64,000 bases of DNA from Desulfovibrio sp. JY (GTDB lineage Bacteria; Desulfobacterota; Desulfovibrionia; Desulfovibrionales; Desulfovibrionaceae). A program made the position numbers and the translations under genes. The stretch is from the NCBI GenBank assembly GCA_021730285.1, contig CP082962.1, forward strand, positions 558,001-622,000, in the 5' to 3' direction. A model generated the notes under the pieces. That model worked only from the letters and a program-made list of their open reading frames with translations, made no database searches and had not been told where the DNA came from. Of the stretch, positions 7,583-13,070 are shown one piece after another (positions within the stretch are counted from its first letter, which is position 1; each line of letters opens with the position of its first letter).

Positions 7583-7806
7583 ATCCTCTCCTTGCCGCGA
7601 CAGCGCCATGGCCGCCGCGCCGTATGTCCGCGGCCCGCGTCGAAACGCATGCCGCACTTATTGGCCCATACCCTCAACCGGGACAAAAGAAAACAGATCG
7701 CCGGCCGCCAGGCGCGCCCTTTCCAAACCAGGCCCATTGGCATACAGTACCTACGCGGCTTTGCCCGCCGCCTGTTTTGCCCCCCCATTCCCTACAAGGA
7801 TTGGCC

Positions 7807-10305
7807 ATGAACGACCCCCTAGCCTCGGAAGACGTGACGCCGAGCCCGGGCCGAGGCGCCACGTCCCCCGCAACCGGATCTCCACCAGCCATGGACCCCG
7901 CGTCCCTGTCGCCGGAAACCGTCGCCCGACTGCGTGAAGCCCTGCGCGCCAGCCAGGAAGCGCTTTCGCGCCAGGACGAGCAGTTGCGGGAGACCCGGGC
8001 CGCCCTGGCCGAAAGCCGCGACCGCTACGACAACCTCTACGAGTGCGCCCCGGTCGGCTTTCTCAGCCTGGACACGACCGGCAGCATCGTCGCGGCCAAC
8101 CGCCAGGCCTCGGCCATGCTCGGCCATACGCCCGAAACCCTGCGCGGCCGCCCCTTTTCCAGATTCGTGGTCCGTGTCGACCAGCCGCTGCTGCGCGCCC
8201 TCCTCAACCGGACCAGACAGACCGGGGAACGGCAGGTCGTGGAAATACGGCTGTCGCGTCCGGACAGAACCGGCCTTTACGTGGAAGCCGTCATCACGCC
8301 CCACGGCCGGTCGTCCGACCCGGACGGGGGCCAGGGACTCCACCTCGCGCTCTCCGACCGTACCCCCCGGCGCGAATCCGAAGAAGCCCTGCGCCTGGCC
8401 GACCTCATCCTCGAAACCAGTCCCGCGTTCCTCCTGCGCTACCCCGTGTCCGACGGCGAACCCGGCCCCCTGGAATACGTCTCTGCCAACATCGCCCGCC
8501 TCGGCTTTTCCCGCGAAAAGCTGCTCAGCGGCACCGTGCTCCCCCGCGAACTCGTCCACCCGGGCGACCTGCCCCGGGTCGAGGCGACCCTGCGGGAAAA
8601 CGCCGCCGCCGGCAACGACGCCTGCATCCTGGACTACCGCCTGCGGACCCGGGACGGCCAGACCCGCCACGTCACCGACCACGTCCGGCTGTTGCGCGAC
8701 GCCGCCGGCCGGGTCAACGCCGCCCAGAGCCTGGTCCTCGACGTCACCGACAGCACCCTGGCCAGGCAAGACCTGGAAACCGTCCTCGACAGCGCCCCCA
8801 TCCCCATCGTCAAGGTGCGCGTCGCGGCAGGCGGCGACCGGATTCTCGAATACCAGAACCCCGCCGCCGCCCGCCTGTTCGGGAAGGACGCGCTGGGGAA
8901 ATCCTGCAAGGGCTTTTTGTGCAACAAGGAGACCTGCCCGGCCCTGAGTGCCGATTCGGGCGTGGTGCGCGACCGGGAATGCGCCATCGCCACCCTGCGC
9001 GGCGAACGCATCATGTACAAGACCGCCCACAAGCTCCCCGACGACTCCTGCATCATCGAGGCCATGGTGGACGTCACCGAGCTTATGCGCACGCGCCAGA
9101 ACCTGACCCGGGCCATGGAGGCGGCCGAGGCCGCCAACAAGGCCAAATCGGAATTCCTGGCCACCATGAGCCACGAAATCCGCACGCCCATAAACGGCAT
9201 CATGGGCATGACCGAGCTGGCCCTCCAGACCGACCTGACCGGGGAACAGCGCGAATACCTCGATCTGGCCCGCCAGTCGGCCCTGTCGCTGCTCGACATC
9301 GTCAACGACATCCTGGACTTCTCGCGTATCGAGGCCGGCCGGATGGAGCTTGCCGCGACGCCCTTTTCCCCGCGTCGGATACTCGGCCGCTGCCTGCGGC
9401 TGTTCGACAGCCTGGCCGCGCGCCACGGCAACACCTTAAGCCTCTCCGTGCACCCGGACGTGCCCGAAACCGTCATCGGCGACGCCGGACGGCTGGGGCA
9501 AGTCGTGGCCAATCTGGTTTCCAACGGGCTCAAATTCACCAAGAACGGCGACGTGCGCCTGTGCGTGGAGCCCGGCGAGACGACCGACGCCCCCTCCGCC
9601 GAGGACCATATCCCCCTGCGTTTCTCCGTTTCCGACACCGGCATCGGCATCCCCGCCGCCAAGCAGGAACGCATCTTCGAACCGTTCACCCAGCTCGACG
9701 GGAGCCTCACGCGCGACGTCGGCGGCACGGGGCTGGGGCTTTCCATCTGCAACAGCCTGGTCGCGCTCATGGGCGGACGTCTTTGGCTCACCTCCCGGCC
9801 GGGAAAAGGCAGCACGTTTTATTTCACCGCCTTGTGCGGCAAAAAGGTCGGAGCGTCCCGTCCCAGACCCGTGGCGCCCGCCGCCCGCCCGCCTTTGCCG
9901 CCCCTGTCCATCCTGCTGGTCGAGGACAACTGCATCAACCAGCTCGTGGCCAAACGGCTGCTGGAGCGACGGGGACATGGCGTCACGGCCGTGGATTCGG
10001 GGCGGGCCGCCCTGGTCCTGCTTGCGGAGACGGACTTCGACTGCGTGCTCATGGATGTGGAGATGCCGGGACTAAACGGCCTGGAGACGCTGACCAGGCT
10101 GCGCGACCCGTCCCTTTACGGGGAGCGGGCCGACACGCCCGTGGTGGCGCTCACCGCCCACGCCGTCAAAGGCTACCGGGAACAAATACTCAAAGCGGGC
10201 TTCGACGACTACGTGTCCAAGCCCATCGACATGCGCCAACTCGAGGCGGCCCTGCGCCGGGCCCTGGCCAAGCCCCGCCGCCCGGGCGACGGGCCGGCCG
10301 CTTAA
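7807..10305 (+). CDS. PAS-domain hybrid sensor histidine kinase / response regulator
   Basis: This 832-residue cytoplasmic sensor has no membrane segment. After a coiled-coil start come several PAS-like domains (about 75-180, 190-320 and 320-430). The dimerisation domain follows, with phospho-acceptor His456 in TMSHEIRTPINGIMG, and then an HATPase domain with the GTGLGLSIC box. The protein ends in a receiver domain with Asp750 (LMDVEMPG). Such BarA/ArcB-like hybrids pass phosphate to an Hpt partner, which is not in this window. The ATG at 7807 follows CAAGGA; longer readings lack a ribosome site. The next gene is a separate response regulator 55 bp downstream, so cross-talk is possible but unproven. 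Confidence 0.9.
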   Translation: MNDPLASEDVTPSPGRGATSPATGSPPAMDPASLSPETVARLREALRASQEALSRQDEQLRETRAALAESRDRYDNLYECAPVGFLSLDTTGSIVAANRQASAMLGHTPETLRGRPFSRFVVRVDQPLLRALLNRTRQTGERQVVEIRLSRPDRTGLYVEAVITPHGRSSDPDGGQGLHLALSDRTPRRESEEALRLADLILETSPAFLLRYPVSDGEPGPLEYVSANIARLGFSREKLLSGTVLPRELVHPGDLPRVEATLRENAAAGNDACILDYRLRTRDGQTRHVTDHVRLLRDAAGRVNAAQSLVLDVTDSTLARQDLETVLDSAPIPIVKVRVAAGGDRILEYQNPAAARLFGKDALGKSCKGFLCNKETCPALSADSGVVRDRECAIATLRGERIMYKTAHKLPDDSCIIEAMVDVTELMRTRQNLTRAMEAAEAANKAKSEFLATMSHEIRTPINGIMGMTELALQTDLTGEQREYLDLARQSALSLLDIVNDILDFSRIEAGRMELAATPFSPRRILGRCLRLFDSLAARHGNTLSLSVHPDVPETVIGDAGRLGQVVANLVSNGLKFTKNGDVRLCVEPGETTDAPSAEDHIPLRFSVSDTGIGIPAAKQERIFEPFTQLDGSLTRDVGGTGLGLSICNSLVALMGGRLWLTSRPGKGSTFYFTALCGKKVGASRPRPVAPAARPPLPPLSILLVEDNCINQLVAKRLLERRGHGVTAVDSGRAALVLLAETDFDCVLMDVEMPGLNGLETLTRLRDPSLYGERADTPVVALTAHAVKGYREQILKAGFDDYVSKPIDMRQLEAALRRALAKPRRPGDGPAA

Positions 10306-10360: not shown

Positions 10361-11038
10361 ATGCGCGTGCTCATCGTGGAAGACGATCTGGAAGCCGCCG
10401 CGTACATGATCAAGGGGCTCAAGGAATCGGGCTACGTCGCCGACCATGTGGCCGATGGCCGCGAGGCGCTGTACCGCGTGGCGGGGGAAACCTACGACGC
10501 GCTGGTGGTGGACCGGATGCTGCCCGGCGTCGACGGGCTCACCATCGTGCGCACCATGCGCACGGCCGGCAACCATACCCCCGTGCTGATCCTGTCGGCG
10601 CTCGGCGACGTGGACGACCGGGTCAAGGGCTTAAAAGCCGGCGGCGACGACTATCTGGTCAAGCCCTACGCCTTTGCCGAGCTGCTCGCCCGGCTGGAGG
10701 CCCTGCTGCGCCGGGGCCGCTCCGAAGCCCCGGACACCACACTCAAAATCGCGGATCTGGAGATGGATCTGGTGGCCCGCACGGTCCGGCGCGCCGGCAA
10801 GCCCATCGAACTCAAGCCCAAGGAATTCGCCCTGCTCGAATACCTCATGCGCCACGCCGGACACGTGGTCACCCGCACCATGCTGCTCGAAAACGTCTGG
10901 GACTATTCCTTCGATCCCCAGACCAACGTCATCGACGTCCACATCAGCCGCCTGCGCCAGAAGATCGACAAGGGCCACGACAAGCCCCTGCTCTCCACCA
11001 TCCGCGGCGCCGGATACAGCCTGCGTGATCCCAACTAA
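10361..11038 (+). CDS. OmpR/PhoB-family response regulator
   Basis: The regulator has 225 residues. The receiver domain (1-120) has the acidic pocket EDD at 7-9, phospho-acceptor Asp51 (VVDRMLPG) and the conserved KP pair (VKPYAFAEL). A winged-helix DNA-binding domain follows (about 130-222, ending GAGYSLRDPN). It overlaps the next gene, a histidine kinase, by 14 bp and so forms a cognate pair. OmpR/PhoB proteins bind direct repeats spaced 10-11 bp. Three such arrays, each ending 10 bp before a -10 element, lie just past the kinase gene (12424-12926), so these are the most obvious candidate targets. That link is inference. Confidence 0.93.
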   Translation: MRVLIVEDDLEAAAYMIKGLKESGYVADHVADGREALYRVAGETYDALVVDRMLPGVDGLTIVRTMRTAGNHTPVLILSALGDVDDRVKGLKAGGDDYLVKPYAFAELLARLEALLRRGRSEAPDTTLKIADLEMDLVARTVRRAGKPIELKPKEFALLEYLMRHAGHVVTRTMLLENVWDYSFDPQTNVIDVHISRLRQKIDKGHDKPLLSTIRGAGYSLRDPN

Positions 11039-12401
11039 ACTGCTGCGTTCCTCGACGCTGCGCCTGTCCATCATCCATATGGCCGCCTTCGGCCTGTCGG
11101 TGCTGGTGCTGCTGGGGTTCATCTACACCTCCACCGCCGGCTTCATGGAGCGGCAGACCGACGAGACGATAAACGCCGAGATCCAGGGCCTGGCCGAACA
11201 ATACAGCCAGCTCGGCCTCACCGGGCTTATCCGCGTCATCAAATCCCGCGTGGCCAAGGACAAGGCCGGGTCGAGCGTCTACCTGCTCACCGACTGGAAG
11301 TTCAACCCCCTGGCCGGCAATCTGGCCGACTGGCCCAAGTTCAAGGACACCGGTTCGGGCTGGTTCGACGCCACGCTGGAGGACACCGAAAATTTCGAGC
11401 CGCGCCGGGTGCGCATGCGCTACTTCCTTTTGCCCGGCAACTTCCACCTCATCGTCGGCCGCGACGTGTCGGAACGCATCAAGGTGGAACGGCTCATCAT
11501 GGACGCGCTCATCTGGGGCCTCGGCATCACCGTTGTGCTCGGCGGGCTGGGCGGCCTTTTAACCAGCCGCTGGACCCTCAAGCGCATCGACGTCATCAAC
11601 AAGGCCAGCCGGGAAATCATGCGCGGCGAGCTGAACCGGCGCATCCCCACCCGGGGGGCCGGCGACGAGTTCGACCGTCTGGCCGAAAACTTAAACGCCA
11701 TGCTCGACCAGATCTCCAAGCTCATGGACGGCGTCAAGCAGGTGTCCAACAACATCGCCCACGACCTGCGCGGGCCCTTAAACCGCATCCGCTCGGGCCT
11801 GGAAATGTCCCTGACCCGGCCGGTCGACGACCCCGAGCACTATCGCACCGTGCTGCGCCAGACCATCAGCGAAATCGACAACCTGCTGATGACCTTCAAC
11901 GCCCTTTTGACCATCGCCCAGGCCGAATCCGGCACCCGCCGCCAGGACTTCACCACCGTGGACCTGACCAGCCTCGCCGCCGACGTGGCCGAGCTCTACG
12001 AGCCCCTGGCCGAGGAAAAAGGCCTGGCCTTTTCCGTGGCCCTCGCCCCGGACGTGTCCGTCCCCGGCAACCGCCACCTGCTCTCCCAGACCCTGGCCAA
12101 CCTGCTCGACAACGCCGTCAAGTACACCCCCGACGGCGGGGCCATCACCGTGACCCTCACCGCCACCCCGAACGGCCCGGAACTGACCGTGGCCGACACC
12201 GGCCCCGGCATCCCGGCCGAATACCGGGACCTCGTCCTCGAACGCTTCGCCCGGCTGGAATCCAGCCGCAACACCCCGGGCAGCGGCCTGGGCCTGTCCC
12301 TCGTCGCCGCCGCCGCCGGCCTGCATCAGGCCGCGCTCCGCCTGGAAGACAACCACCCCGGGCTGCGGGTCACCCTGGCCTTTCCCCGTCCCCGCGCCTG
12401 A
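11025..12401 (+). CDS. Membrane sensor histidine kinase with HAMP domain
   Basis: The 458-residue kinase has TM1 at about 17-37, a periplasmic sensor region of some 120 residues and TM2 at about 158-180. A HAMP domain (about 180-235) precedes phospho-acceptor His246 (NNIAHDLRGPLNR), and the HATPase domain carries NLLDNAVKYTPDGG, ADTGPGIP and GSGLGLSL. The proposed GTG start at 11025 overlaps the regulator gene; an ATG at 11079 would cut into TM1, so the GTG is preferred although its ribosome site is weak. It belongs to the tricarboxylate/metal-sensing OmpR-pair type by organisation; the ligand is unknown. Its stop lies only 22 bp before the first direct-repeat box of the sRNA array. Confidence 0.9.
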   Translation: MIPTKLLRSSTLRLSIIHMAAFGLSVLVLLGFIYTSTAGFMERQTDETINAEIQGLAEQYSQLGLTGLIRVIKSRVAKDKAGSSVYLLTDWKFNPLAGNLADWPKFKDTGSGWFDATLEDTENFEPRRVRMRYFLLPGNFHLIVGRDVSERIKVERLIMDALIWGLGITVVLGGLGGLLTSRWTLKRIDVINKASREIMRGELNRRIPTRGAGDEFDRLAENLNAMLDQISKLMDGVKQVSNNIAHDLRGPLNRIRSGLEMSLTRPVDDPEHYRTVLRQTISEIDNLLMTFNALLTIAQAESGTRRQDFTTVDLTSLAADVAELYEPLAEEKGLAFSVALAPDVSVPGNRHLLSQTLANLLDNAVKYTPDGGAITVTLTATPNGPELTVADTGPGIPAEYRDLVLERFARLESSRNTPGSGLGLSLVAAAAGLHQAALRLEDNHPGLRVTLAFPRPRA

Positions 12402-12423
12402 CCTCGGCCGAAAATGAATTTTA

Positions 12424-12467
12424 GTTCATAAAGCGGCCATTTCACCTCCATGCTGGCAGCCTATCCA
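12424..12467 (+). promoter_or_regulatory. Promoter of sRNA unit 1 with triple direct repeat
   Basis: Three hexamers, GTTCAT (12424), GGCCAT (12435) and CTCCAT (12446), are spaced exactly 11 bp apart. The last one ends 10 bp before TATCCA (12462-12467), a -10-like hexamer. No normal -35 is present. The geometry is identical in units 2 and 3 and matches activator-dependent PhoB/OmpR-class promoters. Confidence 0.65.
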
Positions 12468-12473
12468 GGCAGC

Positions 12474-12632
12474 GTCGGATACGGCGTAGTGGCTAGGCTC
12501 ACACAAACGTGCCCGAACCATACCCTCTTTGTTACATCCGCCGTCCGTACGGCCCCTCCCGTCCGGATGGCCCAAGGTCGCCCTCCCCCTCCTTGAACGA
12601 AGCCCCCGCCCCCACACGGCGGGGGCTTTCGT
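12474..12632 (+). ncRNA. Candidate small RNA, unit 1 of tandem triplet
   Basis: The predicted transcript is about 159 nt, starting some 7 nt after the -10. An internal hairpin closed by CATCCG / CGGATG (12535-12569) exposes CCCCUCCC. A second single-stranded run, CCCUCCCCCUCCUUG (12581-12595), is complementary to Shine-Dalgarno sequences. The RNA would end at a GCCCCCGCC / GGCGGGGGC stem followed by TTTCGTTT. No ORF with a ribosome site occurs. Units 2 and 3 repeat the same plan with diverged sequence, which argues for selection on the RNA. The target and function are unknown. Confidence 0.6.
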
Positions 12633-12633
12633 T
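12602..12633 (+). terminator. Intrinsic terminator of sRNA unit 1
   Basis: A 9-bp stem (12602-12610 with 12618-12626) and a 7-base loop are followed by a moderately T-rich tail. Confidence 0.7.
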
Positions 12634-12661
12634 TCTCCGGCATCCCCGTTTCCTAAACAAC

Positions 12662-12705
12662 GTTCATGTTCCGGTCATGCCGGGTCCACCCTTCCGCCCT
12701 ATCTT
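12662..12705 (+). promoter_or_regulatory. Promoter of sRNA unit 2 with triple direct repeat
   Basis: GTTCAT (12662), GGTCAT (12673) and GTCCAC (12684) are spaced 11 bp apart and followed after 10 bp by TATCTT (12700-12705). The second repeat with its preceding C (CGGTCAT) is the closest in the window to the E. coli Pho-box half site. Confidence 0.65.
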
Positions 12706-12711
12706 CCATCC

Positions 12712-12872
12712 CGACGGCAACGCGGCTACCCCCCTCCGGCCGCGCCGTCACCGCCCTTTGCCAACAAACCAGGGCCCGGTCCCCGCTCCCTTCACCCCAC
12801 CCGGGACCGCAAGCCGAAACCTCCTCTCCTCGAACGCGAAGCCCCCGCTCCCCCGGCGGGGGCTTCCTCTTT
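12712..12872 (+). ncRNA. Candidate small RNA, unit 2 of tandem triplet
   Basis: The transcript is predicted at about 161 nt. The 5' hairpin (GACGG/GCGGC pairing with GCCGC/CCGTC, about 12713-12750) has a C-rich loop with CCCCCCUCC. A second hairpin, CGGTCCC / GGGACCG (12777-12808), also has a C-rich loop. An exposed CCUCCUCUCCUCG (12820-12832) precedes the terminator stem GCCCCCGC / GCGGGGGC. The order hairpin, C-rich loop, CCUCC run, terminator is the same as in units 1 and 3. Confidence 0.6.
12841..12872 (+). terminator. Intrinsic terminator of sRNA unit 2
   Basis: An 8-bp stem GCCCCCGC / GCGGGGGC (12841-12848 with 12856-12863) is followed by TTCCTCTTT. Confidence 0.65.
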
Positions 12873-12882
12873 CCTAACCAAA

Positions 12883-12926
12883 GTTCATGCGCCGGCCATG
12901 CCCCTTTCATGATCCCTGTTTATATA
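12883..12926 (+). promoter_or_regulatory. Promoter of sRNA unit 3 with triple direct repeat
   Basis: GTTCAT (12883), GGCCAT (12894) and TTTCAT (12905) have the same 11-bp period and a 10-bp gap to TATATA (12921-12926), the best -10 of the three. Confidence 0.67.
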
Positions 12927-12932
12927 CATCAT

Positions 12933-13070
12933 GACGGCAACCCCGGCTTCCCCTCAAGCCGGCCCGTCAACGGCTAAGCGGTGCGCACCACGCCGCGACG
13001 GCCACAAGACCACTCTCTCTCCTCCCTCCTTGAGCAGGCCCCCGCTTCCCCGGCGGGGGTCTGTGTTTTT
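12933..13070 (+). ncRNA. Candidate small RNA, unit 3 of tandem triplet
   Basis: The transcript is predicted at about 138 nt. The 5' hairpin is GACGG..CCGGCTT with AAGCCGG..CCGTC (about 12932-12967) and has CCCCUC in its loop. A pyrimidine run, CUCUCUCUCCUCCCUCCUUG (13013-13032), includes CCUCCUU, the complement of a perfect Shine-Dalgarno. The terminator stem GCCCCCGC / GCGGGGGT is followed by CTGTGTTTTT. It shares GACGGCAAC near the 5' end with unit 2. Confidence 0.6.
13038..13070 (+). terminator. Intrinsic terminator of sRNA unit 3
   Basis: The stem at 13038-13045 pairs with 13053-13060 (one G-T pair) and ends with a five-T run, the strongest of the three array terminators. Confidence 0.75.

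Follow-up and report, generated by a model that had tools for sequence, protein, structure and literature searches.

The analysed window comprises 64,000 nt of the forward strand of Desulfovibrio sp. JY (GCA_021730285.1, CP082962.1, positions 558,001-622,000), whose genome is complete and 4.69 Mb in size. It contains the gene pair of a two-component system (TCS) followed directly by three consecutive units of about 138-161 nt (Table 1). This three-unit array had been proposed in a preliminary description of the DNA and was confirmed in place, and the accompanying reading of the units as genes for small RNAs (sRNAs) is supported by the analyses given below. The response regulator (RR) exceeds the cut-offs of both PF00072 and PF00486 and is thus of the OmpR/PhoB type. 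Its nearest NCBIfam model is the heavy-metal response regulator TIGR01387, where it scored 255.9, below the cut-off of 279.2; likewise, the histidine kinase (HK) reached 184.9 with the heavy-metal model TIGR01386 (cut-off 292.55). In 12 relatives the RR is 90-97% and the HK 85-96% identical, and the array is situated directly 3' of the HK in each of them. Just 5' of the RR, at 7624-10305, lies a gene for a large hybrid histidine kinase with PAS and receiver domains, which is also present in the stretches of 11 of the 12 relatives (58-82% identity). Downstream of the array uppS-, frr- and pyrH-like genes, named by eye, are found on the opposite strand.

Table 1. Positions of the two-component genes and of the parts of the sRNA array in the window.
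Feature	Positions	Strand	Remarks
Response regulator (RR), OmpR/PhoB-type, receiver + winged helix	10361..11038	+	Response_reg, Trans_reg_C
Membrane sensor histidine kinase (HK)	11025..12401	+	HAMP, HisKA, HATPase_c
sRNA1 putative operator, half-sites GTTCAT / GGCCAT / CTCCAT	12424..12451	+	half-sites 11 bp apart
sRNA1 -10 element TATCCA	12462..12467	+	TA invariant in 39/39 aligned promoters
sRNA1 (U1)	12474..12634	+	start inferred from -10, end from terminator; kept in 13 genomes
sRNA1 C-rich hairpin loop CCCCUCCC	12553..12560	+	stem paired in 89.7% of cells
sRNA1 CU-rich run CCCUCCCCCUCCUU, 5' of terminator	12581..12594	+	
sRNA1 terminator	12599..12634	+	terminator scan, alignment pairing
sRNA2 putative operator GTTCAT / GGTCAT / GTCCAC	12662..12689	+	
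sRNA2 -10 element TATCTT	12700..12705	+	promoter alignment
sRNA2 (U2)	12712..12872	+	conservation, folding
sRNA2 C-rich 5' hairpin loop CCCCCCUCC	12729..12737	+	folds, alignment pairing
sRNA2 CU-rich run 5' of terminator	12820..12831	+	
sRNA2 terminator	12838..12872	+	terminator scan, alignment pairing
sRNA3 putative operator GTTCAT / GGCCAT / TTTCAT	12883..12910	+	
sRNA3 -10 element TATATA	12921..12926	+	promoter alignment
sRNA3 (U3)	12933..13070	+	conservation, folding
sRNA3 C-rich 5' hairpin loop CUUCCCCUC	12947..12955	+	stem 96.1% paired; 3/4 pairs changed on both sides
sRNA3 CU-rich seed CUCUCUCUCCUCCCUCCUU	13013..13031	+	CTCCTCCCTCCTT invariant in 13/13; recurs in the single sRNA of g53 (3/3)
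sRNA3 terminator	13034..13070	+	terminator scan, alignment pairing

Each unit had been described as preceded by a promoter box. When the 64 kb window was searched with the pattern GTTCATNNNNCGGYCATNNC, allowing up to two mismatches, four matches were obtained, three of them exact and all three inside the array; shuffles gave 1.07 matches on average, and 3 of 100 reached four. The box is present in all three units, and its definition had to be corrected to three half-sites at positions 0, 11 and 22. The 39 promoters of the three units in 13 genomes could be aligned without gaps over 66 columns, three of the boxes being placed by hand after the pattern had missed them. As all promoter windows were cut with a constant offset to the box, their outer ends agree by construction; the finding is the constant spacing between box and -10 element. 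In this register GTTCAT or ATTCAT stands at 0, usually GGCCAT at 11 (also GGCAAT, CTCCAT and others), TTTCAT, CTCCAT or a similar half-site at 22, and the -10 element at 38. Invariant in the 39 promoters are TTCAT, A29, C39, A40 and the TA of the -10 element, and the 5' ends previously proposed (12474, 12712 and 12933) agree with the -10 hexamers.

Direct repeats of 11 bp are usual for regulators of the OmpR/PhoB type. The half-sites at 0, 11 and 22 match this direct-repeat spacing near the -35 region in the 39 promoters, and we regard them as a putative operator; for E. coli PhoB a 7+4 repeat is described (PMC3333781, available text). A scan of the plus strand between 11500 and 14500 for consensus sigma-70 promoters gave zero promoters and called none of the three in the array, which is expected if the array promoters need an activator and is not counted here as support. 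The promoter model R1, run against 199 family genomes, returned 39 strong matches (E <= 4e-8), which are exactly its 39 training promoters; beyond these, the best match under stricter filters had an E value of only 2e-4. As a further regulon member in the window's own genome the best extra R1 match (E 0.002) was rejected, being situated inside a livM-like permease frame (by eye). No other strong operator was detected in this genome among the 150 of 3344 first-look candidates that were scored, and consequently a very small regulon, or a degenerate one, would have to be assumed.

We then considered the RNAs themselves. Between 11500 and 14500 nine terminator-like sites were found as compared to 2.2 in shuffles; the three array terminators, together with versions nested in them, account for seven of the nine. 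The folding z-scores of sRNA1, sRNA2 and sRNA3 are -4.4, -3.8 and -3.7, and in each case none of 200 shuffles folds as well. In the aligned stems 96.6% (U1), 98.6% (U2) and 98.3% (U3) of the cells are paired, values reached by none of 500 shuffles, and slid versions drop to 34-63%. Pairs changed on both sides number 5 of 18 in U1, 7 of 16 in U2 and 5 of 14 in U3. Since these changes lie mostly in the terminator stems in U1 and U2 (4/5 and 5/7) and in the C-loop stem in U3 (3/5), the support for the 5' hairpins is moderate. In G004, G006, G008 and G012 the run in the U3 loop has only six letters. A search of Rfam gave no family at gathering score, the sole match at E <= 1 being anti-hemB with 16.2 bits versus the 49.5 required.

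The last pyrimidine run 5' of the terminator has a mean unpaired probability of 0.78 versus 0.48 for the bodies (42 RNAs). Counted in the window, pyrimidine runs of at least seven letters before the terminator number three each in units 1 and 2 and two in unit 3. CU-rich sites occur in the hairpin loop, in the linker and in the terminator loop, a layout of the LhrC type. In two of the units, U1 of G003 and U2 of G005 (L018 and L020), the terminator stem is extended outward, the DNA behind the terminator being complementary, by eye, to the CU seed; a read-through RNA would thus hide the seed. Regarding coding potential, no start of an open reading frame is common to all 13 genomes, the best being one U1 column, present in 10 of 13, whose frames span 16-30 aa; this bears out the earlier statement that no open reading frame with a ribosome site fits. 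Gap runs that are not multiples of three make up 51 of 72, 72 of 86 and 62 of 79 in the three unit alignments.

With blastn the array was found in 13 of 59 genomes, all of the genus Solidesulfovibrio, namely the window's own and 12 of the 13 others. The exception, G002, is a 69%-complete assembly that is also without another gene of the window. Reading the DNA directly, we found all three units behind the HK in each of the 13 genomes; the number of independent lineages is smaller than 13, because G004, G006, G008 and G012 are very similar. The distance from the HK stop codon to uppS ranges from 0.8 to 5.1 kb in the eight genomes for which both were fetched, and as what lies 3' of the array varies among the genomes, the array goes with the two-component genes. 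In a tree of the units, U1 (0.946) and U3 (1.0) form clades of 13 each, so that the copies predate the split of the genus, and U2 is not resolved as a clade. The mean identity within a unit is 66-71%, and at this level promoters, C-rich runs and terminators are retained in the 13 genomes, as the preliminary description, which spoke of diverged bodies with a kept layout, would have it. That description had beforehand made its reading depend on covariation and on conservation of the array in related genomes; both were found, with the array in 13 of 14 genomes of the genus and compensatory changes in the stems.

Outside the genus the HK led to further loci. A search of 149 family genomes gave 25 matches at E <= 1e-80; 11 extra-genus loci were analysed, and G022, G150, G106, G091 and G018 were without a locus. 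In the three g53 genomes, where the HK is 64-65% identical, a single RNA lies behind it; this RNA shares the box and has a CTCCTCCCTCCTTGA run and a terminator. Behind the HK of the g10, g11 and g16 loci that were read is a gene for a Do/DegP protease, all seven proteins tested exceeding the cut-off of TIGR02037. With a half-site matrix of 20 positions, trained solely on the 39 Solidesulfovibrio promoters, the sites behind the HK in g53 (3), g10 (4) and g11 (2) took ranks 1-9 of 95,126 positions with scores from 31.2 to 19.5, and the score at rank 10 was 7.2. The putative operator precedes the single sRNA in g53 (3/3) and the Do/DegP gene in g10 and g11. R1 matched the promoter sites of the g53 sRNA (E 1e-5 to 6e-5) but did not score the degP sites of g10 and g11, which were detected by the half-site matrix alone. 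In G028 (g16) and G029 (g17), two of the 11 extra-genus loci, the HK is kept and the matrix found the operator absent. The link between array and TCS, previously proposed from adjacency alone, is supported since the operator co-occurs with the orthologous HK across genera. What had been missed is that the same operator appears, judging from these sites, to serve a DegP-type protease gene in other genera.

A Do protease gene adjoins the RR-HK pair in g10, g11 and g16 and in the more distant loci L043, L045 and L046; in Solidesulfovibrio, as in g53, sRNAs and not degP lie behind the HK. Four Solidesulfovibrio and the three g53 genomes have two degP-like copies each, located elsewhere, and no box was found at these copies in the seven genomes with the upstream half-site pattern or with R1 (best E 0.11). 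The distant set consisted of 75 loci, mostly from Proteobacteria, with an HK of 44-55% identity. There the top matrix site of 1.54 million (19.3) is situated about 0.26 kb before a Do protease frame in L046 of the Hyphomicrobiales, the second best (14.4) in L086, and sites of 11.9 just 5' of the RR in L050 and L055; weaker versions of the box thus occur 5' of a related RR or degP in 3 of the 75 loci. An array beside these distant kinases was rejected, as R1 found nothing in the 75 loci at E <= 5 and the two-half-site pattern had no match in the 800 nt behind the kinases. In L043, L045 and L046 (Proteobacteria, Nitrospira) the related genes form a degP-RR-HK cluster, behind which comes either glnE or a solute-binding-like gene (both named by eye).

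Elsewhere in the family, 17 loci with weak R1 matches (E 2e-4 to 0.01) were scored with the matrix; three belong to g53, two to g50, and the rest score at most 12.4. The operator-like site in g50 has a matrix score of 24.1 (L138, about 1501-1545, in G144; L141, 1501-1542, in G133) and lies 5' of an open reading frame resembling an acyltransferase by eye. In the 3 kb fetched from G133 and G144 no match to the RR or the HK was found. From G101, another genome of g50, a weak R1 match was obtained.

The CU-rich runs of the RNAs are complementary to the Shine-Dalgarno sequence. The 10-mer AAGGAGGGAG has 28 exact occurrences in three genomes, three of them in the arrays; with 26 occurrences of the reversed control, it shows no overall excess. 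Among the translations listed, the sole gene with AAGGAGGGAG in all three genomes is that of a class III tetraheme cytochrome c (PF02085). The leader of this cytochrome c3 gene keeps AAGGAGGGAG, which may be no more than a strong Shine-Dalgarno sequence, in 13 of 13 genomes, and the g53 leaders have AAGGAGGAG (AAGGAGGAGATT) instead (3/3). In the window's genome the duplex of leader and sRNA3 was calculated at -22.7 kcal/mol. Of 45 window genes, a crude set in which each gene was given its best start, 1 forms at least as good a duplex with sRNA3, 2 with sRNA1 and 8 with sRNA2. Among 13 genomes of genera lacking the sRNA, 2 have a cytochrome c3 match at E <= 1e-20, which is too few for a contrast. 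Cytochrome c3 is the central periplasmic electron carrier of such sulfate reducers. From the leader sequences it is the best target lead that we have, yet a candidate only, and we think it rather doubtful.

There were other candidates as well. Sites complementary to 15 nt of the seed, two mismatches at most being allowed, number 12, one being the array itself and 11 lying outside; behind one of these (L159) the ATG of a 350-aa frame follows after 13 nt, and two others precede frames of 75 and 43 aa. The window gene at 238-672 on the minus strand, whose 145-aa product is of membrane type and matches nothing in Pfam, has a G-rich leader; the pairing of this leader with sRNA3 is the best in the window (-33.3 kcal/mol), similar in G011 and weaker elsewhere. 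As a conserved target it was rejected, the pairing with sRNA3 being absent from about half of the genus. Autoregulation via the RR mRNA was also dismissed, as full-length duplex folds gave no information and conservation of the RR leader was not seen in the nine genomes with a start found, one of which is without upstream DNA. The Hfq family was found in none of 15 genomes, of which 10 belong to the genus, in a search whose control matched in 5 of 14 known genomes.

We propose, with a probability of about 70%, that the array serves an envelope-type TCS as its RNA output arm, consisting of three anti-Shine-Dalgarno sRNAs. The HK would sense a periplasmic or membrane condition and phosphorylate the OmpR-type RR, which at each of three separate promoters would bind the three half-sites, 11 bp apart, that overlie the -35 region. 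With their sigma-70-like -10 elements these promoters would switch on the three sibling sRNAs together, each RNA ending at its own terminator. Exposed at three places, namely the loop of the hairpin, the single-stranded run that precedes the terminator and the terminator's own loop, the CU-rich stretches would mimic the 16S anti-Shine-Dalgarno sequence and cover the ribosome-binding sites of G-rich leaders without Hfq. The outcome would be less synthesis of exported proteins, with the periplasmic tetraheme cytochrome c3 as leading candidate. The DegP/Do protease gene of related genera would be driven from this same operator, likewise situated behind the HK, and because this adjacent output is a periplasmic protease, envelope stress suggests itself as the theme.

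With the same operator and the same HK, the adjacent output varies by lineage: g10 and g11 have the protease, g53 has one RNA and Solidesulfovibrio has three. The direction was presumably from protease to RNA, with amplification later. Possibly, and we put this forward tentatively, the stress regulator has handed its operator from a quality-control protease gene to an amplified bank of sRNAs; the three RNAs would then be the sole clear direct targets of the TCS in Solidesulfovibrio and would throttle the flow of exported proteins, cytochrome c3 among them, where a protease would degrade misfolded ones.

Three alternatives to this proposal have to be weighed. The RNAs could be driven by the TCS and yet act on a protein, as a sponge like RsmY/RsmZ or CsrB, instead of pairing with mRNAs. 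Short C-rich hairpin loops repeated in each RNA, and this in three copies, would suit such a sponge, as would the failure to find Hfq in the 15 genomes. Sponges of the CsrA type, however, carry GGA loops, unlike the C-rich ones here, and the most conserved stretch of sRNA3 is a linear CU run complementary to the Shine-Dalgarno sequence; we therefore consider a protein target improbable. About equally improbable is that the RNAs repress translation but that the box is used by another OmpR-type regulator and not by the adjacent TCS. Binding of the RR to the box is a prediction, and the look-alike site of g50 (G133, G144) stands in 3 kb without an RR or HK match. Against another regulator, the box follows the HK in four genera though the gene behind it differs, and its weaker versions in the distant loci stand 5' of a related RR or degP.

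The units could finally be promoter-terminator relics or leaders of small peptides without any trans-acting RNA function. G+C-rich and pyrimidine-rich DNA readily forms hairpins, and some short frames do exist, among them the one with the U1 start column mentioned above. Mere relics would hardly have kept three promoters, C-rich runs and terminators in 13 genomes at a mean unit identity of 66-71%, nor do they account for the compensatory stem changes, and a start shared by all 13 genomes is missing while gap runs mostly ignore the reading frame. We thus regard this last explanation as very improbable, and the reading as three anti-Shine-Dalgarno sRNAs put out by the TCS is retained.

Under this reading, these sulfate reducers, with Hfq not found in the 15 genomes, would have a well-delimited group of sibling sRNAs for which a likely regulator can be named, and the array points to a possible control on cytochrome c3. 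Behind one operator there would be a natural series of protease gene, one sRNA and three sRNAs, suited to the question of how a stress regulon passes from a protein output to an RNA one.

The alphaproteobacterial RNAs CcsR1-4 of Rhodobacter sphaeroides and the related CCUCCUCCC RNAs are likewise tandem siblings with motifs of this type. The CcsR RNAs are RpoH-dependent and cotranscribed with an upstream gene for a small protein (DUF1127). The array shares the tandem siblings and the motif type with them but differs in that each unit has its own RR-type promoter, with box and -10 element, and that the upstream gene is a histidine kinase. The available text on CpxQ of the Cpx envelope stress response (PMC4817254) offers a likeness as the RNA arm of an envelope two-component response; CpxQ derives from a 3' UTR, whereas the array RNAs have their own promoters and Hfq was not found. 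The Desulfovibrio small RNA literature includes PMC3333781 and PMC11124144, as far as the text of these sources was available. According to the former, the target of the D. vulgaris response regulator DVU0679 is Dv_sRNA2, situated downstream of the RR gene, and the D. vulgaris genome has just two OmpR-family response regulators. This is likewise a TCS-driven sRNA beside its regulator in the same bacterial family, and in arrangement it is the closest system within the family; unlike the array it comprises one sRNA, no array being described in that portion of the source. Our literature search returned nothing on small RNAs of Solidesulfovibrio or on Desulfovibrionaceae sRNAs together with two-component systems, and an earlier description of the array is possible.

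Closest in its working is LhrC1-5/LisRK of Listeria monocytogenes. The part of PMC4132741 available describes sibling sRNAs whose promoters all depend on LisRK in envelope stress, with three redundant CU-rich sites per RNA (stem-loop, single-stranded run and terminator loop), a target bound at a G-rich sequence 5' of the start codon, and stability and target binding without the need of Hfq. To this system the array corresponds in its several homologous copies, three per genome in 13 genomes, and in the likewise placed CU-rich sites. It differs in that it belongs to another phylum and lies directly behind the RR-HK genes, in that the target here is a lead only, and in that no sequence relation was found (Rfam search alone). 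What appears from sequence comparison to be new is a set of TCS-linked anti-Shine-Dalgarno siblings with no sequence relation found to LhrC or Dv_sRNA2 and with a putative operator common to the protease gene of relatives. Such a parallel to LhrC in another phylum would amount to convergence, even in the placing of the CU-rich sites.
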